Positions 9,661-61,081 of a stretch of 64,000 nt of DNA are shown in pieces. The stretch's first letter is position 1; every line of letters begins with the position of its first letter. Both the position numbers and the translations under genes were made by a program. This DNA is from Macrotrachela quadricornifera (lineage: Eukaryota; Rotifera; Eurotatoria; Philodinida; Philodinidae): NCBI GenBank assembly GCA_022393335.1, contig JAJEKB010018610.1:1-64000 (forward strand), in the 5' to 3' direction. A model generated the notes under the pieces. The model was not told the origin of the DNA. It saw only the letters and a program-made list of their open reading frames with translations, and made no database searches.

Positions 9661-12600
9661 TTATGAGTACTTTTTGTGGTAGAAAGAAACATACAGTGAT
9701 TTATCATTAATTTTATATTGATCAGCATATTTTATCATATTAACTGCTTGTTGTGCATTATCGCATTGAAGAAAGGCATATCTAAATTAAAAAAAAACAT
9801 TAATTATTGAAAACTATATCCTTTGAGTATTTTCTAACACATATTATCTATTCTGATATTATTAATTTCGATTTCTATTATTTTTCCTTATATTACTTTG
9901 CTGTTCTTTTGTCTTAATGCTCCGATATAATCGAATTTCTATTAAATATGAGTTGCTTTCAAACTATATCTTATTATAAATCTAATTGATCAGTGATGAT
10001 TGTAGTGATGCTGCGTTATATACGAGACATTTACAGTTAAAATAAAATAATTGTATTTTTACCAAAAAAAGATCATTTTTGCATTCATGGCATTCGTCAT
10101 TTTGGTCAAGTACTTATATAATCATAACTATCTATGACATTCATTTTTAAATATCTTGTATCGATTTAGAAATAATTTAAACATAGCAAGAAAATGTTTT
10201 AGTTTCAATAAAAAAGAAAAAAAAGTGGTAAAGGGATTTGACAAATGCTTTCTAAAAGTTACACGCACAGTGATGAGTTCTTAGCGTATGTAGTACCTAT
10301 GAAAAAAAGATGTATGTAAAATACATTTAAGAAAATATATATATATTCCTCTATTGATTTTATGAATACACTACATGTTGCAGTTTGCTGTAAAAATAAC
10401 ACAAAGTCAGTGTATTAAATCTACATAAGGATGTTGAACTATTTGTCTTTCCCGAGAAAAAATTCGAATTTTGAATAATCTTCGAAGCAGACTACACTTT
10501 GAACATAATAAACATGAAACTTTTGTTTTATTAAACAATTAGATACTTACTAAAACAATGAAATATCTATAAAATAGAATTCGAAAAGTATGTCCTATAT
10601 AGAATGATGAAATTGATGTAAGACAAGTATTATCAGTCTTTTTCTCTTCGAATTAATAAATAATATTCTATAAAAAATATCATAATTATGCCATAAACTA
10701 ACAATAGTTATCGATTTCATGAATTTTATGAATACAAATCGAGGATATTTATACATATGATATATTATATCTATTTTAAAAATATTCTTATTATACTGTA
10801 GAATAAAAGGTTAGGAAACAAGACGATTGTATGTAGTCATTCTTAATGAGATCGCTTGTGATTACTACTTCATGAAAATTCGACTTGATATTGTGGAATC
10901 TATTACTAAAATAATATTCTTACCCCCATAAGAGTTTTATTGGTGCTTTAACATTTTTCCTTTTAGAATGATTGAATGCATAACGTGCTGGGCAATATTG
11001 TAATATTTGACAATTGGCAAACAAGTTTTGTAAATCGTTTTCACTAACATTTTCGGGTATTCTGCTGACAAAAATTTTTTTTTCATCATAAAATTGATAT
11101 CTTTTTCGAAGACGTGAACGTTCATGAGCGTATTCAATACGGCATGTAGAACCAAAACGATTTTGATCAATTGGTTGCAAAAGATTATATTCAGCATCTC
11201 TTGATGTACGATGTATAACAAAAGCATATCTAGAAAAGTATTATTAAATATTATTTGAGACAATTAATAGTAAAGATACTATAACATACTGAAAGTGTGG
11301 TGTTGTTTGACATTGCTTGAGTGTTACTTTAATACAACCGATAAAATGACGATATAGATCATTTATTCCTACATCACGTCGTAATTGTGATATAAATAGA
11401 GTCTTACGACCATTTAATTTTTTCTTTATCTTTTGTTTTTTAACATGAATTTTATGATAAAAATCTGTTGTTGAGTTGTTGTTAGGAATCAATGAATTAT
11501 TGGTCTAAATAAATTAAAATTTTTTTTTATTTAATGGATTACCCTAATTACAAAATAATGAAGCGCTATAGTTAAGAAATTAGTAATCTTATCATAGAAC
11601 ATAAATAATAGATTTTTACTTAATTTTTAATTAAAACTTATTTGATGAAGAATTTTTTGTTCGTCAAAATTATTAACTTTGTTTTCAGGTAAACAGTTCT
11701 TATTGATGAAAAGTAAGACTAATTTGTACTCTGTTGTTCACCTGAGATAGTTTAAGAACCAAACTTGATAAACTATTTTTGAGATTGGACTCTACTTAAA
11801 TTTGAAATGTCATTACAGTTGAGTGGTTAAGTTGTTCGACACATACGCACAGATTTCTGTGTTCAAACTTTGATGCTAGTAGACATAGAATCATCTTGAA
11901 CGTGTCATTACCGGCTGTTTATCTCGGATGACACATCCGATAACAAATTAACTACATAGCTGTCATACACCATGTAGTTTCTGTTACTAGTATATAGTTA
12001 GTCAGTGTGTAAAGAGAGTTTAAGTAATGAAGCTGAAGATCTATGAGCCAGGTAATACTTCCATTCAGGGCTTGAACTAGTAATAGTCGTAGAGAAAATA
12101 TCAGGCTATCAAAACTGCCTGGAGTATCACTTTATCATCTAAGTTTGAACTATTCTAGAAGATACTCCGCGAACTTCTCAATCGATTAATATATATTTTG
12201 GTACAAAATTCCGGCATCTTCTTTCTCTCTTTTGTTCTCTATGTTTTCATATTTTACAAGAAGTTTCTTATCGATTAGAAGTAAGAAATGAGCATGCATT
12301 TTTATGACTCACTCTATACTTTAGGATAATAAGACAGTTATAGGCTTAAATTGTAAAAAAATTGACAAGATCAAGTAGGTAGAGAGAAAGACTGGTGAAT
12401 AGCAGTATGTTAACATCATATTGTATATCTAACTTTGGAAGGAATATCCTCCTAAGCACATTTAAAAACATTTCGTTAGATGTTAATTCTACACCTGTTT
12501 CATTCTGAGAAGTAGCATCATGAATCTTGTCAAGATACTAGAAAAGTAGAGCATCAAATTCGCTATTTTATGAAATTAAATACTTTCAATTTCGAGTAAG

Positions 12601-15600
12601 ATTAGATGGACCACAATCTTACACAAATTGACCAATGTTCATCAAAAATATCGAAGATTGTAATTAAACGATTTAGTACCTCTTAGTTATTCATTGACAA
12701 AAAGATCATCCGAAAATAAAAAATGTCAGAAGCTAAATGCAAAGCGTTGAATCAAAACGTAAACAATTCTTTTTACTCTAGGTGAGATAATAATCAAGAA
12801 ATTCTTCCATTATAAATTTCGGCAGCCTTCACATCAATTATTATTTCTCTTATGGTTGGTTTTATATAAGAACTAGTATTCATTTAAAGGATTAGTTAGA
12901 TTTTTCAAAGTAGGAGTAATTTAAGCTACTTACTGATTGTTGAGTATGGTTATCGTTTAATACATTCTTTGATTGATCAGTTTGAGAATGTGTTAATACA
13001 GAAGCAGGTGGAGTGAAAGAAGTTATATTTATAAGATCTTCATATGAAACAAGCTCATTATTAATCAATGTATCACTGGTAATATTCTTCGATAGAAAAT
13101 CAGATATACACGTTGGATAAGATTGATTTTCTACAGTATTTGAAAGTTCAGGTAAATATTCTTGAATAATTGATTCTGTCGTTGTATCCATAGGCATATT
13201 GTTGTCATGCATATCCAAAAACGATATTTCACTATAGTTGCAAATAAAATACAAGTCAGATATATATAAATATACATATACTAATATAAAGAAATTTTTC
13301 TAAATTTTATTCGTAATTGATGAAAATAAACTATTATACAAACGATATCAAAAACGAATGAGTGTCTCAAATAGAAGTAGGCATCAGTCGCGTCCGAAAA
13401 ATCTGTGTTAGAAGTTTATTAGAGTCAGAAATTATTATATTGTAAAACAAGTATGTATCTTGATGAGAAAGAGTAAAATCAAGAAATGTAAACATATGAT
13501 GATAATTATAGGAAGATGAAAATACTTTTTAGCATGTTACTTAACATAGTTTTCGCAATATATTTTCGAAAATAAACAAAATTATTATTAACAGAAGTCA
13601 TAGAATAAAAATTTTGCGACTTTCTGAATGATGATGTCTATTATTATTAATAAATAGAATTGTATAGTCCAAGAGATAAATTTCTCATTCATTATTACTT
13701 AGAAAATATAAGTCAATTGATAAACTTTGTAGCTATAGATATAACTGTGATCGTTCAGTTTTTTGATAATTTATTTTATTATGTGCAGATTTATCATCGT
13801 CAGTTTTGAAATTTCTTCTTTTGATCTATTTCCATTGCGTGTTATGAATTAACTGAAAATGATCGAATTCGAAGGTTTGGAATCGATGCCTACCTATTTG
13901 AATATCAGTTAAATATTTGTCCGACATTTCATATAGAATACTTAATTAAATAGATTGAAGAAAATCTACAATTGTCGAAATATTTTAATGTAATATTAGG
14001 AAATGATGTAAAATGGTAAGATTTTTCATGAGAGAGAATTTTTGTTAAACATGACTTAATTCTTATATGACTCACTTGTGTTGTAAGGATTGATTTTGAT
14101 TAGTATTTTCATTGTGGATTTGTTTGTTTTGATCAAAAAGTGTATTACTAGTACGAAATAATATTGATTCAGGTGAAGATTCATCAAATTTATATTGAAT
14201 TTGTTGTAATTGTACTATTGGTTTTATATTTATTAATGAAATATCATCAACTAAAATAAATATTCAAATTATTTAGTTTTATCTTTAGCTATGATTCATT
14301 TCTGATAAACTTTAAACATTTTTTTCAATATTAGATAAAATCTCCGTTTTATCTATTTATTGACTTTATATTTTAAAAGAAGGATTTTATCATTCTATAT
14401 CATTATTGAAACTATGTTTAACCTTAGACGTTCTCATTTATAATATTGAAAATTCAAAAGAAATTTTCAATGAAACACTATACATGTAAAAAAAATATGT
14501 TATGATTTCTAGTATTGTATTTAAATGTTTATCGAAAATTGCAAATGAGAGCTATAAACTCAATTTAGAAATGATTTCCTATAATAAGAAATTGAAATAA
14601 TAGAGATTGAAAAAAATTGTATATTTTTTTAAAAATATTATTCTTCGATCTTTGATTCCAAAGACCTGTTGTAACGTATCGTTAACAAACAGTTACGCTA
14701 TCAAATAACTCATAAAGAGAGGTTTTTCATTGACTACAACATAATGTCTAATTATAACAACTTTGATGCAATAATTTTTAATAATTTTTGATTTGGAAAT
14801 CTGCTAAGAATCTGAGATAAACATAGATAAATGACAAATATCGACAACAAGATTGATAATTAAGAGCGTTTCTCTTCTTTTTTTAAAATTATTTCTGGTT
14901 ATCCTATAGAGTGCAATTATTTCGGCTAGGACTTTTACCATGGATAGAACACTATAAAGTGACATGTGTTCAAGGGAAAATTTTTTAAAGATAGTTTGAC
15001 GTAGATTTGCATTCGGGTATATTATGATTCTCATAAAACTTGATCTGATTAGGCTGAAAATTTTTTTGAGATACCTCAGAGGTAATTTTAAACATTTTCG
15101 AAAACGTTATGCGAACAATACATAAATATTCGAAACAAAATCAGGGTGTGGACTTTTAAAATTCTATAAATTTGAATATAAAGATAAAAAAACAACTCTA
15201 TCGAACAAAGCTAGCGGGTGGTTGTATGTAGATAGAACTGAGAAAAGTCGTCATAAAATCAATGAGTTTGTAATATTAAAAAGTTTTTAGATGATCTTAT
15301 GCTCAACTAGAAATCTAATCATTGGCGAAAAAAGTGGGAAGACATTCTGAATAGATTCATTTTCAGTGTTGTATCCAATATGGAGCTAGTGTCTTTCTAG
15401 AGATTAAGTTTGTCTTCTCAAAATTTAAAAATGCTCCTTCACAAGAGAAAACATGAACATAACACTACTCATTTACATTTTTCTATCGTATACACAGATA
15501 TACCAAAATCTTGAGTAACTTGGATTCAGTCTATACATAAATTATTTATGTAAAAAAATCTCAATGAGTCAAATTCTATTTCTTAATTTCGATTTAAAAT

Positions 15601-16708
15601 CGTTTAATTTTACCTTTCGTTAAATAACTTTCATTATTTATCCGAAAATTCGTTGATACAAAATTTTCTTCGTTTGAATCTAAAAAATAAATATTATATA
15701 AAATGATTATATTTTTACTGTTGTTTTTTTTAAATGTATTTAACCTTTTGAAGGACGTAATTTTCGTTGAATATATCTTTGTATAAGTTCATGTCGAAAG
15801 AAAGTGAAATCAAATTTTTTTGATAAATTTTTATTTTTATTACGACATTGACATGTATAATATGCATGACCATCTTCAATCCAACTAGGTAAAGCAAAAT
15901 CAATTGATTCATTCCAAATTTCATTTTGAAATAAACTTTGAAATAAAATTCCTTCTGATAATATAACAAATTCATTTGAATTTTGAATTATTTTATGATA
16001 TCGTATATTATATTTAATAAAAAATGATGGATCAATTAATAAATGATTATGATTAAAACAAATTGATAAATTTTCTTTTAAAAGAATATTTTCAAGATTT
16101 TTTCTTTCATTAAATGGAATAATATACCAATAACGAGGACCACCTGTATGATGATATACTAATGAACATAAATGATTTTCATTACTATTTAATGGAATAA
16201 CTGCATTTTTTCCATGTGATCTTATTAAATAAGGATTAAATTGATTAGTAAGATTTTTTCCACCTAATTTAAGTAATGATTGTTTTGAAATATGACGAAT
16301 ATTAAAATATGTTCGATTACTTTTTGCACGAAAAAAACTTTTGTTATGTAAAATAGATATACTTGATTGTTTTGGATTATTATTACAATGAGATAGATTT
16401 GACCAAAATGATGTTTCATCGTCTATCGATGGTGATGATGATGATGATACTTCTTTATTTAAATTTTCTTCTAAGTAAGAAAAATATATTGGTTCATTTT
16501 GATGAATTTTTGTTAGTCGTTGAATAGTTTCAGGTAATAAAGGAAATGTTTGTCTTTTTAATGGAAGTTTACACTTATTATTTAGTTTGATTTTTAATGC
16601 ACCATATTGTTTAAGAAGATTTTTATGCATATAAATAAATTTTAGAAGATTCGTTAAATCATTTTCAGTTATTTCTAATGTTGGAATATCTAGTGATATT
16701 GATGACAT
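9661..16708 (-). CDS. JmjN/JmjC-like pseudo-demethylase fused to two RRMs
   Basis: I assemble seven exons: 16708-15745, 15679-15614, 14250-14076, 13231-12934, 11504-11290, 11229-10924, 9781-9661. Every junction has GT/AG, all phases match, and the sum is 715 codons including TAA (714 aa). Residues about 8-70 resemble JmjN (IPTLEITENDL). About 130-285 resemble JmjC: YHHTGGPRYWYIIP aligns with the YLHFGEPKSWYAIP segment of KDM4/KDM5-type enzymes, and EFVI...FALPSWI with the domain end. The positions of the iron ligands (HxE and the distal His) are Asn, Asn and Phe, so demethylase activity is unlikely. After a polar linker come RRM1 (about 535-615; KTLFISQL, QYAFVIH) and RRM2 (about 623-711; KKIFVSRI, GYAFLQC). 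Inferred role: a nuclear chromatin- and RNA-binding protein. Alternative: exon 1 reads through to a stop at 15740 and is a separate gene; the 65-base intron with matching phase argues against this. Several introns are unusually long (0.8-1.4 kb). Confidence 0.72.
11821..11876 (+). repeat. tRNA-like remnant (SINE or pseudo-tRNA)
   Basis: The word GAGTGGTTAAG resembles the D-arm/A box of eukaryotic Leu or Ser tRNAs. About 28 bases later GTGTTCAAACTTTGATGC resembles a degraded B box. No complete cloverleaf folds. It lies inside the long fourth intron of the JmjC-RRM gene. A tRNA-derived SINE head is possible, as is chance. Confidence 0.3.
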
Positions 16709-39599: not shown

Positions 39600-40157
39600 A
39601 TGTTACCATCATTTGCTCATCAACGTCAATTATTTCTTCGTCAATTAATTCAAACATGTCCTGAAAATCTTTCAACTTTAAAAACTTATCTATCTTCCTA
39701 TTCAAATTTAATTTGTCCATCTTATAAAAAAACTCGTGATCCATTAGCAATGAAAGAACTTTCATCAAAATGTCCATCTTGTTCACATCTTTATTCATCA
39801 AATTCATTTCAATATCGTGGAAAACTTCATATTAATAAACGTTTACATTATCTTCTCTCTATTCGTCGTAAATATAAACGAATTCCAACACCAAATACTT
39901 ATAAACGTCGTTTATTAGATAATTTTACAACAAAATCACGTTCAAAATTATTAATTAAATGTTTTAAATGTGGAGAAATAAGAAAATTTCAAGGAGCAAC
40001 AAGAAAAGATATTCCAAATAAAACAGTTACAAAAATTGAATCTATAAAACCAAAACCACTTTCAAATAATGTAAAACTAAAACAAACATATGAGAAAATT
40101 TCATGTCGTTTTTTAAAAAAAGAAAGTAATCTTCGCGCATTTCTCGAACAACTTTAA
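39600..40157 (+). CDS. RMP24 (C18orf21)-like RNase MRP protein, 185 aa
   Basis: Single exon. The protein is basic, with two CxxC knuckles: CPSC at 58-61 and CFKC at 121-124. A Lys/Arg-rich stretch lies between them, and a hydrophobic RAFLEQL motif sits at the C-terminus. The same order occurs in vertebrate C18orf21, the RNase MRP subunit RMP24, which has a CPYC, a CKTC and a C-terminal FRNFLSSL-like end. I therefore infer a zinc-ribbon protein of the Rpr2/Rpp21-like group acting in rRNA processing in the nucleolus. Overall identity looks low, so the assignment is moderate. The ATG follows a splice acceptor by 34 bases. The stop is only 53 bases before the XPA start, suggesting a shared transcript. 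Confidence 0.62.
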   Translation: MLPSFAHQRQLFLRQLIQTCPENLSTLKTYLSSYSNLICPSYKKTRDPLAMKELSSKCPSCSHLYSSNSFQYRGKLHINKRLHYLLSIRRKYKRIPTPNTYKRRLLDNFTTKSRSKLLIKCFKCGEIRKFQGATRKDIPNKTVTKIESIKPKPLSNNVKLKQTYEKISCRFLKKESNLRAFLEQL

Positions 40158-40210
40158 ATTTTCATTTCAGATTAAAAAGAAAAAAAGAAACATATACATA
40201 TAAATATATA
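40158..40210 (+). promoter_or_regulatory. intergenic splice acceptor between RMP24-like gene and XPA
   Basis: TTTTCATTTCAG ends at 40170, 13 bases after the upstream stop and 40 bases before the XPA ATG. No room exists for an ordinary promoter. The simplest reading is a spliced-leader addition site inside a two-gene operon. Confidence 0.55.
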
Positions 40211-41059
40211 ATGTCTAATTCTGATGAAACTCTTACATCTGAACAACTCGAACGTATTGAACGTAATCGTCAACGTGCACTTCAACTTCGTGCTAGTTCA
40301 ACAAAAATTTATCAATCTCAAATAAAACCTGTAACACCATCTTGTACACGTAAACAACAAATTGATTCTCATGCTGGATTTTTTCTTGAAGACGATCCAA
40401 CATCTGTTGATAATCGTCCAGTAACTTATGAAACAATATCAATAATTCATCAAACAAAATCTGATCAGTTAGATGTATTTGGTATGCCATGTAATGAATG
40501 TCAAATGATTTTTTTAACATCATATTTATATAAAAATTTTGAAGAACCTATTTGTGATACATGTAGAGAAAAATATTCAATTAATGATGAAAAAGATGAT
40601 TGTGATGATGATGATGATGATGAACAATTAATACGTTATAGTTTAATAACACGTACATCAGCAAAAGAAAAATATTTATTAACTGATTATGATTTAGATA
40701 AACGTGAACCATTATTAAAATGTATTGAAAAAAAAAATCCACATAATCAACGTTGGGGTATAATGCGTCTTTATCTTCGTTGTCAAATTCAACGTTTAAG
40801 TCATCAAATACATGAAGGTAAAACTCAAGAAAAAGTTCTTGAACGTGAAGAAAAAAAATGTGAAAAAAAACGAAAAAAATATGAAAAACAAGTTGAACAA
40901 TTACGATTAGATGTTCGAACAAGTTTACAAAAAAAACGAATGAAAACTTTACATGAACATATTTATGATGAAAAAAATATAAAATATGATGAAAAAACTG
41001 ATATTTATACAAAAACTTGTTTAGAATGCGGACATCAATATCAATACGAAGAAATGTGA
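40211..41059 (+). CDS. XPA: XPA, nucleotide excision repair scaffold
   Basis: Single exon, 282 aa (human 273). Residues 94-118 form the C4 zinc finger with the human spacing (CNEC-x17-CDTC). The DNA-binding domain follows: residues 143-203 include the LITRTSAKEKYLLTDYDL segment and HNQRWGIMRLYLRCQI, the XPA signature. Then comes a Glu/Lys-rich helix (207-240) and the C-terminal CLECGHQYQYEEM, matching the TFIIH-contacting CGHELTYEKM end of human XPA. XPA verifies damage and holds RPA, ERCC1-XPF and TFIIH together in the nucleus. One difference from my recollection of the vertebrate protein is an acidic run (about 124-139, mostly Asp) directly after the zinc finger. The gene sits 53 bases behind the RMP24-like gene, on the same strand. 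Confidence 0.96.
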   Translation: MSNSDETLTSEQLERIERNRQRALQLRASSTKIYQSQIKPVTPSCTRKQQIDSHAGFFLEDDPTSVDNRPVTYETISIIHQTKSDQLDVFGMPCNECQMIFLTSYLYKNFEEPICDTCREKYSINDEKDDCDDDDDDEQLIRYSLITRTSAKEKYLLTDYDLDKREPLLKCIEKKNPHNQRWGIMRLYLRCQIQRLSHQIHEGKTQEKVLEREEKKCEKKRKKYEKQVEQLRLDVRTSLQKKRMKTLHEHIYDEKNIKYDEKTDIYTKTCLECGHQYQYEEM

Positions 41060-41944: not shown

Positions 41945-42433
41945 ATGACTACGAAAACAACTGCTTCTTCATCTGGTAAAAAACCAGCATTAGCAGCTGA
42001 AGAACAACAAAAAATTGTAACTGGCTTTCAAACTTTACGTGAGGAACAAACTCAATTAGTACAAAAAACTCAAGATTTAGAAATGGATTTAAAAGAACAT
42101 GATCTTGTCTTATCAACTTTATCAGGTATAACAGATAAACAACGTCGTTGTTATCGTATGATTGGTGGTGTTCTTATTGAACATACAGTTGGTGAAGTTT
42201 TACCAGCTCTTCAAACGAATCGTGAACAAATTAATAATGTTATTGAAAATTTTAAACAAAAAACTGAAGAAAAAGCAAAAGATATAGCTGATTATAAACA
42301 AAAATATGATATACATTATTCGTATGAACGACCTCAACAACAACAACAAACATCAATAACTACTAATGATTCAGGAATAAAATCCAAGAAAGAATCACAA
42401 GATTCAGGTGTATTAATTGATAAAGAAAATTAA
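41945..42433 (+). CDS. PFDN2: prefoldin subunit 2
   Basis: Single exon, 162 aa (human 154). It is a beta-type prefoldin: an N-terminal helix (FQTLREEQTQLVQKTQDLEM, residues about 28-47), the conserved beta-hairpin region CYRMIGGVLIEHTVGEVLP (residues about 68-86), and a C-terminal helix (QTNREQINNVIENF onward). A polar Gln/Ser-rich tail follows from about residue 130. PFDN2 is one of six subunits of the cytosolic prefoldin complex that passes unfolded actin and tubulin to the chaperonin CCT. The ATG is directly preceded by a splice acceptor (TTATATTAG), which supports the start and suggests a 5'-UTR intron or spliced leader. Confidence 0.95.
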   Translation: MTTKTTASSSGKKPALAAEEQQKIVTGFQTLREEQTQLVQKTQDLEMDLKEHDLVLSTLSGITDKQRRCYRMIGGVLIEHTVGEVLPALQTNREQINNVIENFKQKTEEKAKDIADYKQKYDIHYSYERPQQQQQTSITTNDSGIKSKKESQDSGVLIDKEN

Positions 42434-50697: not shown

Positions 50698-53600
50698 ATG
50701 AACCCAACTCCTGCCAACAGTGGCAGTTTGGTATGTTATTTAATAAATAAATAAATCATTTTTTATATTTCGTTTTTTTTTTATTTTAGGGTTTGAATAC
50801 CATTGTTTCAACACTTGTTCCAAATCCATCAACGTTAGTATATTAAATTATTCTTTTAAATTTAAATAAATCTTTTTATTTTAGTCGACCATCATCAACA
50901 ACAATTGTTTCCAATATACAAAACGCTTCATCACCTGTAAATCTTTTTGCTAATTTACCTGGTGGTATTTTTCCACCAAATAATAATACCAATAATAACA
51001 ATAATAATAATAATACTATTAATTCATCAACTGCCAATCAAGGGCAATTAACATCATCAGTAAATTTATAATATATTCTTTTTATTTTTTAAAAATTTAT
51101 ATGATATTATTTTGTATTTTTCTAGCGCCTTAAAGTGGAGGATGCACTCAATTATCTCGATAAGGTGAAGAACCAATTTGCGCTTCAACCGCAAGTATAC
51201 AATCAATTTTTGGATATTATGAAAGAGTTTAAATCACAAAGGTATACAAAAAAATGTTTATTTTTATTGTTAAAAAGCGTCTTTTTTTTGTTCTTTTTTA
51301 GTATTGATACTCAAGAAGTTATCAATCGTGTATCAACACTCTTTCATGGTCATCCAGATTTGATTGTTGGTTTTAACACCTTTTTACCACCAGGTTATAA
51401 AATTGAAGTAAGCGATGAACATCATGGTTATATTCAAGTAACACATCCATCATCGCGAACAGAATCAATTGCAATTGGAGGTAGTACAAATACAACATAT
51501 AATTTATCAATAACAACACCAACAACAACATATCGTCAAACAGCTAATTTATTAAGTCAAGATAATGATGAAATTGATATATCTCAACAACAAACAAATA
51601 ATGCAACATCACAAGCTGTTAATGCATTAATATCAGCTGCTACTGCACCACAAATACCATATTTTGGTACAACAAGTGGTTTAAATTTATCAACAAAAAA
51701 TAATAAACAACAAATATCATCAAATGTAAATACTTCAACACAAGCAACAACAGTAGAAAAAAGTTCAAGTGGACAACCTGTAGAATTTAATCATGCAATA
51801 AATTATGTTAATAAAATAAAAAATCGTTTTCATCAGTAAATAAAAACTTTCTTTTTTTCTATTTTATTTTATTATTTTTTTGTAACTAATTTTAGAAGTC
51901 CAAATATTTATAAAACATTTCTTGAAATTCTTCATACATATCAAAAACAACAAAAAGATGCAAAAGAAATTCCTTCAGGTACTTTAACAACAAATACTGG
52001 TTCATCAATAATAAGTGGAATATCAAATCAATCAACATTACTTTCTGAAACTGAAGTTTATGCTAAAGTTGCACAATTATTTACTAATCATGAAGATCTT
52101 CTTGCTGAATTTAGTCAATTTTTACCTGATGCTACACAACAACCAACTGTAAATATCAATTAAAAAAATTAAAATAAAACTTCTTATTTCTTTTTTTTTT
52201 AAGGAACGTTCAAATTCTATTTCTGATATTTTATCATCATCTGGTAGTTCAACTCCACCAATATTTGCAACACAAACAAGTTCAATATCAACACCAGCAA
52301 CAACAACAGCAGCAATAACAACAACAAATCCAAATCCAATTGTAACTAATCCAACACCACGTTTAATAATTAGTAATCCAGTATCATCATCAACTATAAC
52401 AACACCATCAAATTCATCATTTTTAACAATAAATAATAATTCAAATTCATCACCATTATCATCCTTAGCAATGTTATCATCAGCACCATCATTTACGGTA
52501 TTAACATCAACAACAGTTAAAGATGAAGTTATTCGTCCACCATCACCAAAACGAACAATAACAGCAGCAACAACAACAACAGCAACCGCAACAATAACAA
52601 CGACAACAACAACTACAAGTGCATCAACTAGTACAAATAATATTCCTAATAAACGATCTGCTTCATCATCAAAATCACCAGCAGCAACAGCAACAACAAC
52701 AAAGAAAAAACGTTTAACAATGACTAATAATGTTCAACCAATATCACCAACAATTCGACATACAAGTACAACTGAAATAACAACAGGACAAAATAAAAAA
52801 TTATCTTCAATTGATGATATTGCTTTTTTTGAAAAAGTATATTTTTTATTTTTACTTTTTCTGTATAATTTTATATTCAATTTTGTTTTTCTTTTATATT
52901 TAAAGGTACAAAAAACACTTCGTAGTCCATTGGTATTCGATAATTTTTTACGTTGTATTTTACTTTATACAAAACGAATTATATCTCGTAGTGAATTATT
53001 TGAACTTATACAATCTTATCTTAAGTAAAGAAAAAACGAATTTAAAAAAAACAATCATTTTTTAATTTCTGTTTTGTTTAGTCATGTACCGGATTTATTA
53101 AAAACATTTCAAGATTTAATAAATCAACGTGAACCAGGTGATGTTATTATTCCAAAAAGTATCTATGATCAAAATGATACAGATAGTATGATTAGTATTG
53201 GTAAGTTTTTATATTAATAGAAACAATGTAATCTAAAGATTAATTGATTAATAGTTTTAAAGTATATATTCTATAAATTATTCAGTAACGAAAGTAAGAT
53301 TTTCGATCCAGTGATTTTAGATTTTACATCAGACTTTGTCGACTGAATCCTAATCACTACGAATTTTAGTAGCATCTATTTAATGAGTAATAAATTACGA
53401 TCTTGGGATACTATTGGATTGATCGAACTGAATCATTTTTCGGAATATGAGTCGGATTCAAATTCAAGCGGTTCTACCGTCAACAATTCTTTTTCTTTTG
53501 ATATTCCATTTTCATGTTTTATTGAAATTGAAATAATATTTTTCTTTTCTCCAGATTACGGTTCATGTTCTCAATATGGAACAAGTTATCGATCAGTTCC

Positions 53601-56600
53601 ACGTTCTTATATTCCTCCATCATGTAGTGGTCGAACACAATTATGTAAAGAAGTACTTAATGATCATTGTGTATTATTTCCAACATTTACTGATGAATCA
53701 TCATCAGTTGTATCAAAAAAAAGTGTTTTTGAAGAGCATATGTATAAAATTGAAGATGAACGTTTTGAACTTGATATTGTTATGGAAGTTAATTTAAGTG
53801 CAATAAGATCATTAGAAAGTGTACAATTACATATGAATTCATTAACACCAGATCAATTAAATCACTTTCAATTAGATGATCAATTAGGTGGACAATCAAC
53901 AGTTATACAAAAACAAGCAATACAAAGAATATATGGTGAACGTGCAAGTGAAATCATTGATGGATTAAAACGAAATCCACGTGTTGCTGTACCAATTGTT
54001 CTTAAACGGTATAAAAAATATGAATTAGATTTTTTATTTATTTATTATTATTATTATTATTATTTTAGATTAAAATCAAAAGATGAAGAATGGCGTGAAG
54101 CTAAGAAAAATTTTGAACGTTTTTGGAAAGAACAAAGTGAAAAATATTATCTTAAATCATTAGATTATATGGGAATAAATTGTAAAAATTCTGATGCAAG
54201 AATAATTCGTAATCGATATTTATTAAATGAAATTGAAAATATTAAAGATGAAGTAAAAAAAAAATAAACAAATAATTTTTGACATTTTTCTTATTTATTT
54301 CATTTTATTTATTACTAGCGTGATCAACATGTTTCTTCAAATACAAATCAATCACATTTAACATTTCGTTATGATGATTTATCAATACTTGATGATGCTG
54401 CATCATTAATTGTTTTTCTTGTTAAACGTCAAATGGCATTTGGAAAAGAAGATAAACAAAATATTAAAAAAATTATGTATCAATTTTTACCAGATTTTCT
54501 ATTTACACCAAGAGGAGAACTTAGTGATGATGAAGAAGGTAATTTTATATATATATTATATTATACGAATTCAAGTACTCTTCTCTCTTTGGGATGCTTT
54601 CAAATATTGTTACATTCTCTACCATTAATACAAAAAATATTAAATAGTTGGCTGCGATCATACATGTATTGCATATTTTGATCGAATGAATTTTAGAAGA
54701 TTACGAAGTTGTAGAGTAAATGTATGCCAGCCTCAGTCCCAACTACTCAATTTAGTACAAAAATCAATTAGGTATACATTTAATCTATATTGAATCTGCT
54801 GCATATTGACTAAAAATAGAAATATTTTCTCTACAACTGTATAACCTTGTAAAAGTTATTCGACTGATAATCCAAACTTGTTTTGACAGGTTGTCAAATA
54901 TTCAATCAAAATATGCAAAATATATATAATCACAATTAATTATCTTCTTGTTTTTTATTCTTTATAAGAAATGTAACAATATAAGTGCCTTAACAAGACA
55001 AGAATATTTTAATTAATTCAATATAAATTTTACAATTTTATTTTGTATAGATGATGATGAAGATGAAAATAAACGTGATAAAAAATCTCGACCAACACGT
55101 CATACAGATACAAATCGACGACGTAATAATGAATCCTTAACAACTAAACCTCGACAACTTGCACAAGAATACCAAAAACCAGTAAAATATTATTGATTAT
55201 TTTATTTTATTATATTTTATTTTTTTTTTTGTAATTTTAGGATGATATGTTTCATTTATTTCTTGTTAATGATAATTATTATTTTTTCTTTCGTCTTCAT
55301 CAATTATTATGTGAACGTTTATTAAAAATGTTTCAACAATCATTACGTTTAATTGAACAAGAAAATCGAGAATTAAATGAAAATAGTTCACAACATAATC
55401 GACAACCATCTGTTGCTACTTTACTTCGTTTATCAAATCGATGTATAAATTTATTTAAAAAACAAATAATTATATTTCTATATTCTTTTTTTTTCTTTAG
55501 CAAATATACCCGTTGATGATTATTATCCAGTATTTCTTGATATGGTAAGAAATTTACTTGATGGTAATATGGATAGTTCATCATATGAAGATTCATTACG
55601 TGAAATGTTTGGTATTCATGCTTATATTGCTTTTACAATGGATAAAATTATTCATAATTGTGTTCGACAAGTATAAAAAAAAATAAATAAATAAAAAAAA
55701 AATTCTTTTTATATTCTTTCTTTTTTAGCTTCATGCTATTGTAACTGATGAATCATCTGATGCAATAATGCGTTTATATTCACGTACTAATGGTACAGTT
55801 GGTCTTGTTGATAATCTTTATTCAACAGCACAACAAAATTTAGAAACTGCTTATCAACGTGAAATGGAACCATATGCAGATGGAAATCGTTTATTTCGTG
55901 TTTGTTCAGTATGTTAAAATTTAAAATTTATTTCTATTATTTTTATTTTTATTTTTATTTATTTAGTTCAAAAATGATCGACGAGTAACAACAACATTAA
56001 TTGTTATTGATTCATCTGATGATGAAGATGATGAAAGAATATCAGAAAATTGGACACATTATGTTGAATCATTTATACGTGATAATGAAAATGATCATAA
56101 TGAAGCAATAACAGCACGTATACGTTCGAAATTACGAAAAAATCCTCGATTTTTAATACGGTAAAATTAAAAATAAAAAAGCAGAATTTGTTAATTCGTT
56201 TTTTTTTTGTATTTAATAGAAATATTAAAAAACCATCGGATATGAGTGATCGTTCATTAACAGAAGTTACAACAACTAATAATGATTATTGTCGTCTTGA
56301 TACAAAAACACTTAAACGTAAACCATGCTATCGTGCCGGTTTCTATTTTTATAAACGAAATTCTTCACGTTCAATAAAACAAGTATATTTTTTAAATTTA
56401 TAGGAATACATCTATATTGAATTTTTTTTCATATTTTAGAATCATAAAAAATTATCAATTGAACAATATAATCGTTTTTCAAAATATTATCAAGATTGGT
56501 CATTAAAACATGTATCTGATAATGATAGCGATCCATATAATAATCTTTGGCTTAAAACATATCGACCGAATAATAATGAACAACAAAATATAGATATACA

Positions 56601-56682: not shown

Positions 56683-58323
56683 TAAAGAAAAAAAAACAAA
56701 ACTTATATGTTTCTATTTTACTTTGTTTTTTTTTTGATCATGTGTCCGTGCATATTTTGTATTTTACTTCCAGTCATTGTATGTATCATAGACACATGTG
56801 TAATGCTTCTGTTCGATTTCGTTTTTTTTCTTTTTTCTTCTTTTGTCGTACTATTATAACATATGTTTGTACATGATGGATTATATTAAACTATCAGCAA
56901 AAAAAAATACTTATACGATTTTTCTTCAGTTTTGTATTTTATCCTATATATATATATATATATATGCATATACATTATGAAAAAACAAATGATGTTTATT
57001 TATTATTCCTCACGTAAATAAAATGCATTCGTTATTGATAAAAAGAAAATAGATTAAGTTTTAATCCTGTATATTAATTGATTTATATTTGAAATGATTT
57101 GTATAGTTTTGTATTGAGAAAAGTTAAATATATCGTTAACTATAGAAATCGAAAACAGAATTACAAGAAATTAAATATCGTTTAATGATTGAAAAAGTAT
57201 CTTGCGTAGAATCTATTTTATATTTAGCTAAGGAATTCGATTTAACTGATGTGTTTTAATTAACAAAGATCAGATTCAATACTATATTGTCTTGAAAATC
57301 GGCGTCGTTTGTAAAACACCGATCAGATCTTACTTAAATATTATCAAATCTATTTTTATTAGATTTTTGATAGGATTAATGTAGAAAAGGTTTGATCAGG
57401 TCGTTTCAGTTCAATAATCTGAAAATAAGACTTATAAAACTTGAAAAGGATCTAGTCAAATTTTATATCAAATTAAAGCGCATTGAAAATAGGATTTATC
57501 GATATAAAATAGTAAAAATTATATTAACTTTAAAATGTTAAATTCAGAATATTCCTAGGATTTCTCACCAGATTTCTTGTTTTTTTTCACTGAAAATTTA
57601 CAATCTTTATATAGATGCACAGGATTTGGAGCATCACTAATTGATTGTATGAATATATATTATTGAATTTTATCAGCTCATGTTTGCATTTGGTTTAGCA
57701 GTTGGACCACATCTAAATGGGAAAAAATAATATTATTTTTATATATATCTGTACTTACGTTTCAATTAGCTATTGAACGAAATTTTAACAAAAAAAATTA
57801 TTGTATTTTGTGAAAGTAATCGAACAAAGTCGTCAGTTTGAGTTTCGAACGCGAATTATCCGTGATTAACTGACGATTTTGACTAAAATTGTCCGATATT
57901 ATCCGTTTCCAAGAATGAAGACAACATGAATTTAAAATTAAAACTAAAATTATATTCCAAACTCATATAAGTATCATTGTATCGTAAGCATTATCAAAAA
58001 GTAGCTCGAGATAGGAAACCCTCATAGAAATCAAAGAAACATCAAAAGTCTACTCTCTTAAGCAGCGGTGCTAAATCTTCCGTATGTCACAAAACTTAAT
58101 TCTACGATTCATAAAACAGAACTAGGTAGTTTCAGGTGAAACTTTTTTCTGCTTAAACAATATATTTTACACGACAGATTTATATATGAAGAACAAACAA
58201 CGGATATAAAGTACTTTATTTTACCAGGATTCATTTTTAATTATTTAACAAAGCTCCACTCGAGTTGTATAACACTGAAAACTAATTTATATGTTTCTCA
58301 GACATTTTTTCTATATGGGTTGG
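56683..58323. other. SIN3 3' flank, gene-free
   Basis: SIN3 3' UTR with polyadenylation-like sequence, a TA dinucleotide run at about 56946-56966, then AT-rich sequence without a gene. Confidence 0.55.
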
Positions 58324-59218
58324 TGAACTTTCATCACGGGAATTTTCAGCACGGAATTTTTAGCACAGGAATGTTCAGTACGCGGAATAATCAGCAAAAT
58401 GATTGTTCACCACGTCAGTATTGTAGAAACCGTAAACTCTTAATGATTTAACGAGTTTTAGTTCGAGTTAACAAGTTAACACGTTTTGAATTTGAGTTTA
58501 TGAGTTAACCTCTTTCATCCATCACCCCCTCTCTCGTTCCTCCGCTCCCTATTGTGCATTCACTTTCTATCCCTCTATCTTTCTCACACTCTCACTCTTC
58601 TCTCATGCTGCTCTCTCCCCCCTTTCCTCCATAGCATTACTCCATAGTCTTTCTCTCAAATCAGTTCATTTTCTCTCCTCTTTCGATTTCTCTATCAGTA
58701 TTTTCTTCTTTTTTCTTCAATTTCTTCTCTATTATCTCTCTACTCTCCCTTTCCATCCTCTCTCTATTCTGTCCATTCTCTCTTTTCACCATCACTATAA
58801 CCATCCCCGTTTCTCTCTCCATTCACCCTCACTATGCCTCTCACTTATCTCTCCTGTCACCTTCGCTATTTCTCCCCCTCACTCTCAGTACAACCCCCCC
58901 TCCCCCATTTCTCTCTCCCTTTGCCCTCACTATACCTCCCACTTATCTCTCCCGTCACCCTCGCTATTGCTCCCCCTCTTATTGTCTTTCCCTCACCCTC
59001 AGTATGACTCCTCCTTCTCTGTTCCTTCACCCTCAGTATAGTCCCCTCCTTTTGTCTCTCTCTTCAATCTTATTATTGCCCCCTCCTTTTGTCTCTCCCT
59101 TCGACCTTAGGTGTATGCAAAATATATGAGTTTTTCTTGGAGGTGAATATTCACGTGCTGAAAATTCCATGCTAAACGTTCCGTGCTAAAAATTCCCGTG
59201 CTGAACATTCCGTTTCCC
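58324..59218. mobile_element. inverted-repeat-bracketed element with pyrimidine tract
   Basis: The left arm (58324-58395) contains serial variants of the word GGAATTTTCAGCACG. The right arm (59143-59218) carries the reverse complements (CGTGCTGAAAATTCC, CGTGCTAAAAATTCCCGTG). Between them lies about 600 bases of C/T-rich sequence. No coding frame or clear target-site duplication is seen. Repeated words within each arm suggest subterminal repeats used by a transposase, but the class is unknown. Confidence 0.5.
58507..59108 (+). repeat. polypyrimidine minisatellite
   Basis: A strongly strand-biased C/T tract with words such as CTCTCTCC, CCCTCACTAT and ACTTATCTCTCC. Units of about 90-95 bases recur: CACTATGCCTCTCACTTATC at about 58828 returns as CACTATACCTCCCACTTATC at about 58927, each followed by GTCACC(T/C)TCGCTATT. 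Purine interruptions are few. Confidence 0.75.
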
Positions 59219-61081
59219 TGTCGATATACACCAAACTTATTGAAGAATCAGTAATCAGCATCAAATACATCGAAGCATAACATAATACCATAGTGATAAT
59301 TATCTCTGGTAGTAATGAAAAATGAAATTTACAATTCTATGCAGTTTTTGACTTTTAAATTATGAAAAATTGTTAAAAGTACTTAAACCAATCATTTAAA
59401 GTCCTCCTAAATACAAATTGATTCTATTGAATGCTAGAAAACAGAGAAACAACTTGAATGTTGTAATTTTCATTTTAAAATGTCGTTGCAGTTAACAGCA
59501 GATTCGACTTTTTTCAACGAATATTTTCATATTAATCTGTATCTAAGCAGCTTAACAGTGTGTCTTATACAACTTGATGAGTTACTTAGACCTAAGTTGA
59601 TGTGTGAACATTGATTGAAAAAAGCCTAACCTGTCTTTAACCTCATCGTTTTTTGCGAAAATTGTAGTTTAATTGAGTGTAAAAACAAAAATAAACAAAA
59701 ACAATCAAATATTCATCATCAACATTAGATACTGCATACAATACTGATCTTTTTTCTAAAATTCGAAGAAAATAGAAATATTGATCAACTGTAACTTTAA
59801 AAATTTTGAAGAAAAACAAAAATTAAAATTTCGAAACACTAAATATATTATTTTGTTTATAGTTTGATGTTGTTTTCAAAAATATATCCAAATAAATCAA
59901 TATTTATGAACAAAAATATTGAAAAATCTTTCACAGCATAGAAATAGACTAATTTTTCAGATGTTGATAAAATTTTATAACGTCGTATTTTTAAAAAATT
60001 GACACAAAACTACATCGAAATTCAATCAGAATGAACATATTCATTAGAGTTTATTGAGTACGTTTCAAAAATTGCTAATACAAGCGAACAAAACAAACTA
60101 TAAATCAGTTTTGTTGCAAACTTTCATTGAAGATACAGATAGTTGTCGTGCAATATATTATTGCTACTCATATAAATGTAACGCATGACTGAATATCATA
60201 CGCTGAAGGAGAATGTCATTTTCTATTGATTGATATCTGAATCTGTCAATCATTTTTTTTTCAAGGATATATATCACTACACTCGTTCATATAAATTTTC
60301 GAGTTGATTGCTTCAAAAAGGATTTCATGCAAAGATGAAACAGTGTACTTAAGTCATTTTACGGTACTTTATGTTACTTTAGATTGGTTAAAATTGTTGC
60401 AAACTTTCTTATAATAACGGCAAACACACATTCTAGATATAATGACTATTATTTATTTGGTGTCTATTAGTTAAAAATAAAATATAAAAAATCTGAAGAA
60501 AATCAGCGTAGTTTAACGTACTGTTGTATGCTAGAAACTACATTGGTACTTTCACATACTTTTCAATGTGCAGTACACTGTTTTTTTTCTTGTTTTCATG
60601 TGTACGTCATAGGCAAGATTTCCAAGAAATAGAGACACTTCAATTTCACATATTATCGATAGTGCTCTTTCTAGTGGTAGACGTAGCTTGCTTTTCTTTT
60701 GAGCTCAAACCTTTCTCTTTCATAAGTGGCTCGCAATAAGTTATACCGATTTGTAAAAACAAACTTTCAACGTTGTTGTACATCCAAATAATCAAGAGGA
60801 ATCAGATTAGTGTCAATTAGATATATAATTTTTTAAAATGATGATAAAATAATATTATTATCTAGCACCATCTGTTTTCTATGGATGTCGCACATGTAAC
60901 TAACGTCACCATTGGTTGATTAAATTATTCATCGGTTTTCGAAAGGTATATACCCTTCCTACCTTTCACTATTTCGATATTTTCGGCAATATTTAATAAT
61001 GCAATTATCAATTACTTCTGCTAGTAAATCATAGAACAATTCATTGAATAAAATACAATATATAATATGTTTTTTCCTTAG
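59219..61081. other. gene-free stretch upstream of PSMD1 exons
   Basis: AT-rich with no supportable gene; the 71-codon frame at 60524-60739 has no domain. The first PSMD1 coding exon with its ATG should lie here, but I could not find one whose phase fits the acceptor at 61081. MDVAH at 60880-60894, followed by a GTAAC donor, is close to the expectation but is out of phase. Confidence 0.45.

Follow-up and report, generated by a model that had tools for sequence, protein, structure and literature searches.

Does the seven-exon gene predicted on the minus strand of a bdelloid rotifer contig join a histone-demethylase-like core to RNA-recognition motifs (RRMs) in one product, and, if so, could that core still act as an enzyme? 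The question is raised by a stretch of 64,000 nucleotides from Macrotrachela quadricornifera (contig JAJEKB010018610.1 of assembly GCA_022393335.1, positions 1 to 64,000 of the forward strand), hereafter the window, in which the gene runs from position 16708 to position 9661. We hold with very high confidence that the product combines this architecture with the status of a pseudo-enzyme, as predicted from its sequence, and we lean modestly towards placing it in a bdelloid family in which a pseudo-demethylase derived from KDM4 is fused to a tandem RRM module and would couple RNA to chromatin.

Gene structure and domain content

The joined minus-strand model comprises seven exons that give 714 codons and a stop, with GT/AG at all inner borders, and both its start (MSSIS...) and its end agree with annotated homologues. 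Rejoining the exons reproduced the coordinates, lengths, phases and splice borders of the initial annotation (Table 1), together with its count of 715 codons including the stop. When each exon piece was compared with six homologues, using 200 shuffles each, both RRM pieces outscored 200 of 200 shuffles against each homologue. For exon 4, 0-5 of 200 shuffles reached the score in four of the six homologues (14 and 51 in the other two), and for exon 3, 1-10 of 200 did so in four of six (95 and 194 in the other two). Exon 2 scored no better than shuffles against the same six homologues and, being 66 bp long, leaves the frame unchanged if skipped; it is, on homology, the only exon of the model left unproved, exon 3 being supported against four of the six. 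Identity to homologue P0001 amounts to 148/321 in exon 1, 46/101 in exon 6, 18/40 in exon 7 and 2/22 in exon 2, and over 17 homologues it ranges from 41-49% in exon 1 and from 31-46% in exon 6.

The initial annotation had proposed a JmjN/JmjC-like module followed by two RRMs, and this is confirmed by Pfam (JmjC, RRM_1) and by superposition on KDM4A, with JmjN seen in the fold model only. On the joined protein, Pfam finds JmjC (E 8e-15, residues 175-259) and RRM_1 (E 5e-5, best stretch 25 residues), and on the C-terminal 194 residues it finds two RRM_1 stretches (E 1e-6); RRM1 alone falls under the Pfam cut-off (E 0.014; 15.7 bits vs 20.7). Among the 26 family members scanned, all have Pfam JmjC and 19 have RRM_1, and the Pfam JmjN model matches neither these nor the window product. 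An AlphaFold2 (AF2) model of exon 1 superposes on residues 12-354 of KDM4A (2oq6_A), the JmjN part included, with the alignment beginning at residue 6. A Pfam scan of the 714-residue product at E <= 1 returned JmjC and RRM families only, with no PHD, Tudor, ARID or C5HC2. In PDB searches KDM4 chains rank top for the core, and a fold search with the full-length model gave KDM4 chains only, among the matches listed; the whole-protein profile matches nucleolin (7.1e-12) and Pub1 (7.2e-10) via the RRM pair, and the RRM profile also matches PABP, ELAV and CELF chains.

Within the RRM pair, the RNP1 motif of RRM1 (QYAFVIH) straddles the junction of exons 5 and 6, and that of RRM2 (GYAFLQC) straddles the junction of exons 6 and 7. 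Across the RRM-bearing rows of the family alignment, Y574 is present in 29/29 and F576 in 24/29, while position 676 is Y or F in 21/21. In a model of family member P0002 the RRM region is predicted, at middling confidence, to form two beta-alpha-beta-beta-alpha-beta units, and linker residues 325-528 have a predicted local distance difference test score (pLDDT) below 50. A SYEELMD-type linker motif recurs in 7/29 RRM-bearing members vs 0.46 expected from shuffles, a weak signal from a pattern picked after inspection. Judged by sequence, the RRM pair probably binds RNA. A query with the RRM part of P0002 retrieved, out of 151 candidates, no more than P0002 itself and P0028; as family members already known were missed too, it is uninformative on RRM-only relatives.

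Loss of the catalytic site

At the positions of the KDM4 Fe(II) triad HxE...H, the window core reads N174-x-N176...F256, and the family as a whole has lost the set: HxD/E occurs at the iron site in 0/134 alignment rows and the distal His in 0/133 non-gap rows, a lone His stands at 174 in three of 134 rows and D/E at 176 in three of 134, and the full triad is found in none. The lysine of the KDM4 ...PK.W motif binds 2-oxoglutarate (2OG); the corresponding residue is R192 in the window, and among 132 non-gap rows it is H in 76, R in 54, L in one and Y in one. Other parts of the core are strongly kept. A CHCC set (C217, H220, C286 and C288 in the window), which we take to correspond to the structural zinc site of KDM4, is complete in 128/133 non-gap rows. 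Adjoining the lost active site, the near-invariant motif YHHEGG (residues 185-190; YHHTGG in the window) has H186 in 130, H187 in 132 and E188 in 109 of 133 non-gap rows, with Y185 and G189 invariant.

Because the three iron ligands are absent, the core should not be called a demethylase, and an active demethylase was rejected as an explanation: the iron-ligand set is missing across the family, whereas canonical KDM4 genes of the same genome keep HTED...H. The 'histone-demethylase-like fold' of the initial annotation therefore stands as a KDM4-type fold, shorn of the three iron ligands, a point which that annotation had missed. The JmjC core is best described as a predicted pseudo-enzyme, inactive by ligand loss.

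A multi-copy bdelloid family

The gene is not a one-off fusion; it belongs to a conserved, multi-copy bdelloid family. The protein search yielded 25 homologues, and the 23 named ones all come from Rotaria or Adineta; six of the 25 align over 95-99% of the query at 33-38% identity, and the best two, from Rotaria socialis (730 aa) and Adineta steineri (708 aa), contain both Pfam domains. Rotifer proteins that combine JmjC and RRM, for which the initial annotation had proposed a search, thus exist in both genera. In the window's own assembly (450 Mb), 58 JmjC matches were found, of which 35 (window included) were taken because the match lies, as in exon 1, within one open frame of 323-396 codons; the others are canonical JmjC genes interrupted by introns, short fragments, or frames outside that range of length. 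All 24 of the 35 copies that were checked with the family profile (window included) match it, and the remaining 11 were counted by Pfam match and open frame alone. The genome accordingly holds about 35 copies, some of them allelic: 21 exon-1 copies fall into 14 groups at 90% identity, so that some must be alleles or recent duplicates.

The order of parts is shared across loci. A genome search with Rotaria exon 6, which covers the end of RRM1 and the start of RRM2, gave 23 matches, and for 22 of these (window included) such a JmjC exon stands upstream on the same strand, at a distance of 1.4 to 21.5 kb; the 23rd lies on a 13,132-base contig without a JmjC match. Among 20 loci of 8-10 kb examined, the exon-1 frame is present in all 20, and RRM exons or pieces, always on the same strand as JmjC, in 10; three loci extended by 5 kb showed no RRM there, and two of the three (L009 and L019) have an RRM about 20 kb away. 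Splice borders recur as well. An AG/GT donor (the slash marking the border) ends the exon-1 frame in 15/20 copies, the ends of L009, L010, L012 and L018 not displaying the site and L027 having AA/GT; in seven loci exon 6 has AG in front of its YAF codons; and this exon ends in TTATGGGG, followed by GTAAG, in L021, L022 and L024-L027, as in the window. In a zone of 14 residues at the intron-1 donor, picked after inspection, Gly occurs in 67/79 unspliced database open reading frames (ORFs), the upstream per-residue rate of Gly being 1.1%.

A family set of 133 database proteins plus the window drew on 120 of 157 matches; the other 37 probably include some of the 25 homologues, and the rest of them are absent from the set. 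In the resulting tree of 129 rows (five of the 134 were too short and left out), which has no outgroup, RRM-bearing rows stand on both sides of the midpoint, which suggests, as far as sequences can tell, that the fusion predates most duplications of the family. Canonical KDM4 copies in the same genome have their JmjC split by an intron and the family has its whole core in one exon, which makes it plausible that the family arose from a retrocopy of a KDM4 core that became joined to an RRM gene.

Constraint was gauged from dN/dS (nonsynonymous over synonymous substitutions), given as per-pair estimates without a significance test. Seven near pairs in the own genome have values of 0.10-0.74 (the high value at dS 0.011), an eighth pair being identical, and 14 more distant pairs have 0.21-0.45; the copies compared with one another, the window copy apart, thus have dN/dS below 1. 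Against the window copy, dN is 0.42-0.53 and dS 0.44-1.44, values not interpretable at such divergence and AT content, and the case for constraint on this copy therefore comes only from its intact frame and kept motifs.

Two sources of further relatives were rejected. Within the window, tblastn of the model gave nothing outside the gene better than E 0.51, and none of the first 25 homologues matched there at E 1e-3, which leaves no paralogue inside the window; viral contigs yielded 4 pattern matches, none of them confirmed.

Several JmjC genes and family members deserve mention in their own right. L005-L008 and L003-L004 are canonical KDM4-like (HTED...H) and HVED...H genes, respectively, with introns inside JmjC, the HVED...H genes being presumably KDM5-like. 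No JmjC match in the genome scores higher than L001 and L002 (99.9 bits), which show no KDM4-type HxE pattern. Possible gene-model errors include an internal repeat in P0017, a PF05817 domain joined to JmjC in P0072 and a C-terminal stretch of P0025 that aligns with no other member.

Proposed role and alternative explanations

Judged from the architecture, whether the main role of the protein is that of an RNA-to-chromatin adaptor is an evenly balanced call. In such an adaptor, the dead JmjN/JmjC core would dock onto a histone tail or a chromatin protein, the RRM pair would bind RNA, possibly nascent or transposon RNA, the flexible linker may hold partners, and the whole would direct either a silencing or an activating complex to the chromatin that produces the bound RNA. 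A proposed precedent, by analogy, is the catalytically inactive JARID2, said to act with long non-coding RNA (lncRNA) for Polycomb repressive complex 2 (PRC2); passages of a review describe JARID2 as inactive yet needed and treat lncRNA-mediated targeting of PRC2 (PMC11241480).

Several observations weigh against a uniform RRM-bearing adaptor family or against the window copy as its representative. The RRM profile (E <= 1e-3) matches only 30 of the 134 rows, most rows without a match being single-exon ORF predictions, and the RRM label needs at least seven changes on the starred branches of the tree, which may reflect real losses or single-exon ORF predictions that end at intron 1. In the own genome an RRM partner was found for 22/35 JmjC copies and none for 13/35, a count that used one Rotaria exon as query and scores the best candidates only, so that absence is not proven loss. 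Nine of these 13 had some 8-9 kb of downstream sequence read: seven showed no RRM, one of them over a further 5 kb as well, and the other two gave weak pieces only. As most of the examined downstream stretches are empty in this way, part of the family may lack RRMs. Of these nine, L020 shares 97.5% identity in exon 1 with L023, which has its RRM at a distance of 13.8 kb; in L033 the end of the examined stretch cuts through an RRM piece, and L011 has weak RRM pieces. At the second position of the RRM2 RNP2, 19/25 rows have V (F in the window). The window copy itself is a long branch; it departs from 5/58 conserved positions vs a median of 2, has T188 in place of the E of YHHEGG, and shows dN > dS against 4/20 copies (L024-L026 and L028). 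Moreover, the full-length model has a mean pLDDT of 56 and is poor outside the core.

A tentative alternative, on the doubtful side, is an RNA-processing factor whose dead core would be no more than a scaffold and which, in the manner of nucleolin, ELAV or CELF proteins, would take part in RNA splicing, stability or translation; the RRM profile matches to nucleolin, Pub1, PABP, ELAV and CELF chains would fit it, as would the conservation of exon 6, which across 17 homologues comes close to that of exon 1. A core of more than 300 residues kept at 41-49% identity, with a nearly strict CHCC set and YHH..GG, speaks against a mere scaffold and argues for a selected role of the core itself. An unlikely reading is that of a KDM4 decoy or shield, in which the inactive core, aimed by RNA through the RRMs, would occupy chromatin marked by trimethylated histone H3 lysine 9 or 36 (H3K9me3/H3K36me3) and keep active KDM4 from erasing transposon silencing marks. 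The core is nearest KDM4 by sequence and fold, and canonical KDM4 is encoded in the same genome; according to passages of PMC8885841, heritable silencing in Adineta vaga would need to override H3K9me erasure by KDM4, and the mediators between PIWI-interacting RNA (piRNA)/Piwi and chromatin are undefined, while Argonaute and RNA-dependent RNA polymerase (RdRP) families are expanded in bdelloids, as parts of PMC7943196 report. Yet histone binding and the transposon link are putative, and the closeness to KDM4 concerns the core as a whole.

The remaining alternatives would undo the pseudo-enzyme or the fusion. That the core is an active 2OG oxygenase with its metal site shifted to the HHE of YHHEGG draws on the near-constancy of that motif, and is highly improbable: the window has T188, the 2OG-lysine place is H or R in 130/132 rows, the distal His occurs in no non-gap row, and HHE lies 12 residues past the HxE place. 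Least credible of all is a false joining of two neighbouring genes. The exon-1 frame does run one codon beyond the exon (Lys321-Gly) to a stop at 15742-15740, exon 2 is without homology support, and some annotated relatives are JmjC only; against this stand 22 loci, the window's among them, that share order and strand, splice borders that match across the paralogues displayed, and full-length proteins in Rotaria and Adineta. The two-gene artefact was rejected on these grounds, which uphold the single gene claimed initially, and a separate RRM gene, the outcome named there as refuting it, is strongly disfavoured by sequence.

Returning to the RNA-to-chromatin adaptor, its setting is a large family in ancient asexual animals with unusual transposon silencing. 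For bdelloids, parts of PMC8885841 place H3K9me3 on transposons and describe SETDB1 as amplified, and a table in PMC12220480 includes an A. vaga gene with Brachionus KDM4B as best match. In view of this bdelloid silencing literature and that on JARID2, the shield and adaptor readings are worth testing and are not proven, and the family supplies ready candidates for the as yet undefined mediators that link small RNAs to chromatin in this group. A speculative combination, to which we give little credence, would make the family the missing bdelloid adaptor, its RRMs catching nascent transposon RNA and its dead core, seated on methylated H3, blocking active KDM4 or recruiting SETDB1/HP1; if true, H3K9me3 would outlive erasure in an asexual animal, and the growth of the family to dozens of members would mirror the amplification of SETDB1, Argonaute and RdRP in bdelloids.

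Pseudo-enzymes of the JmjC class and proteins with RRMs are each familiar; their fusion in one gene is a new domain order for which no description was found. Database entries of the family are unnamed products with both Pfam domains, full-text literature searches on bdelloid JmjC/demethylase and on JmjC-RRM fusions returned, among the papers listed, no title or abstract start that describes the family, and the terms 'JmjC' and 'jumonji' are absent from the main text of PMC8885841 and PMC7943196.

Feature coordinates and other features of the window

Table 1. Exons and selected features of the JmjC-RRM gene in the window.
Feature	Position	Strand	Description
Exon 1	15745..16708	-	964 bp; residues 1-321 and first base of codon 322; whole KDM4-like JmjN/JmjC core
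Pfam JmjC match	15932..16186	-	Residues 175-259; iron-ligand positions N174, N176, F256
Intron 1 donor	15739..15744	-	AAAAG/GTTAAA, phase 1
Exon 2	15614..15679	-	66 bp; GT/AG and frame consistent; without homology support, possibly optional
Exon 3	14076..14250	-	175 bp; linker; weak to moderate homology
Exon 4	12934..13231	-	298 bp; linker with short acidic-hydrophobic stretch VSYEDLIN
Exon 5	11290..11504	-	215 bp; lysine-rich stretch and first half of RRM1 (RNP2 LFISQL)
Exon 6	10924..11229	-	306 bp; remainder of RRM1 and first part of RRM2 (RNP2 IFVSRI)
Exon 7	9661..9781	-	121 bp; end of RRM2 and stop

Elsewhere in the window, the plus strand carries an open frame for a homologue of the nucleotide excision repair protein XPA at 40130-41059 (XPA_C 8.1e-25, XPA_N 3.1e-12), a prefoldin subunit at 41945-42433 (Prefoldin_2 1.6e-21) and open frames for a Sin3 co-repressor at 51126-54267 (PAH 1.1e-16, Sin3_corepress 3.6e-31). 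The stretch 58001-60000 is strongly strand-biased (GC skew -0.334) and contains an imperfect C/T-rich tandem array of period 34 at 58814-58974.

Comparison with known systems

With nucleolin, ELAV and CELF the family shares two neighbouring RRMs with RNP1 and RNP2 motifs; sequence similarity to them is weak, and these tandem RRM proteins are not known to have a JmjC core. ALKBH8 likewise unites an RRM and a 2OG-oxygenase fold in one protein, and differs in being an active enzyme of the AlkB type, outside the JmjC class, that also has a methyltransferase domain. The likeness to JARID2 lies in a JmjN/JmjC core predicted to be catalytically dead, JARID2 being said, in the review passages cited above, to use lncRNA for chromatin targeting (PMC11241480). 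In contrast to JARID2, the family product has no ARID or C5HC2 match (Pfam, E <= 1), is nearer KDM4 in sequence and would contact RNA through its tandem RRMs. KDM4/JMJD2 enzymes share with the family the JmjN/JmjC core fold across the whole of exon 1 and the CHCC ligand set, whereas the family is without the iron ligands and the 2OG lysine, gives no PHD or Tudor match, has its core in one exon and has gained RRMs; the short human paralogue KDM4D is likewise not known to carry PHD or Tudor domains. The family thereby offers a natural case of a KDM4 core that appears to have been retained without its chemistry, beside canonical KDM4 in the same genome.

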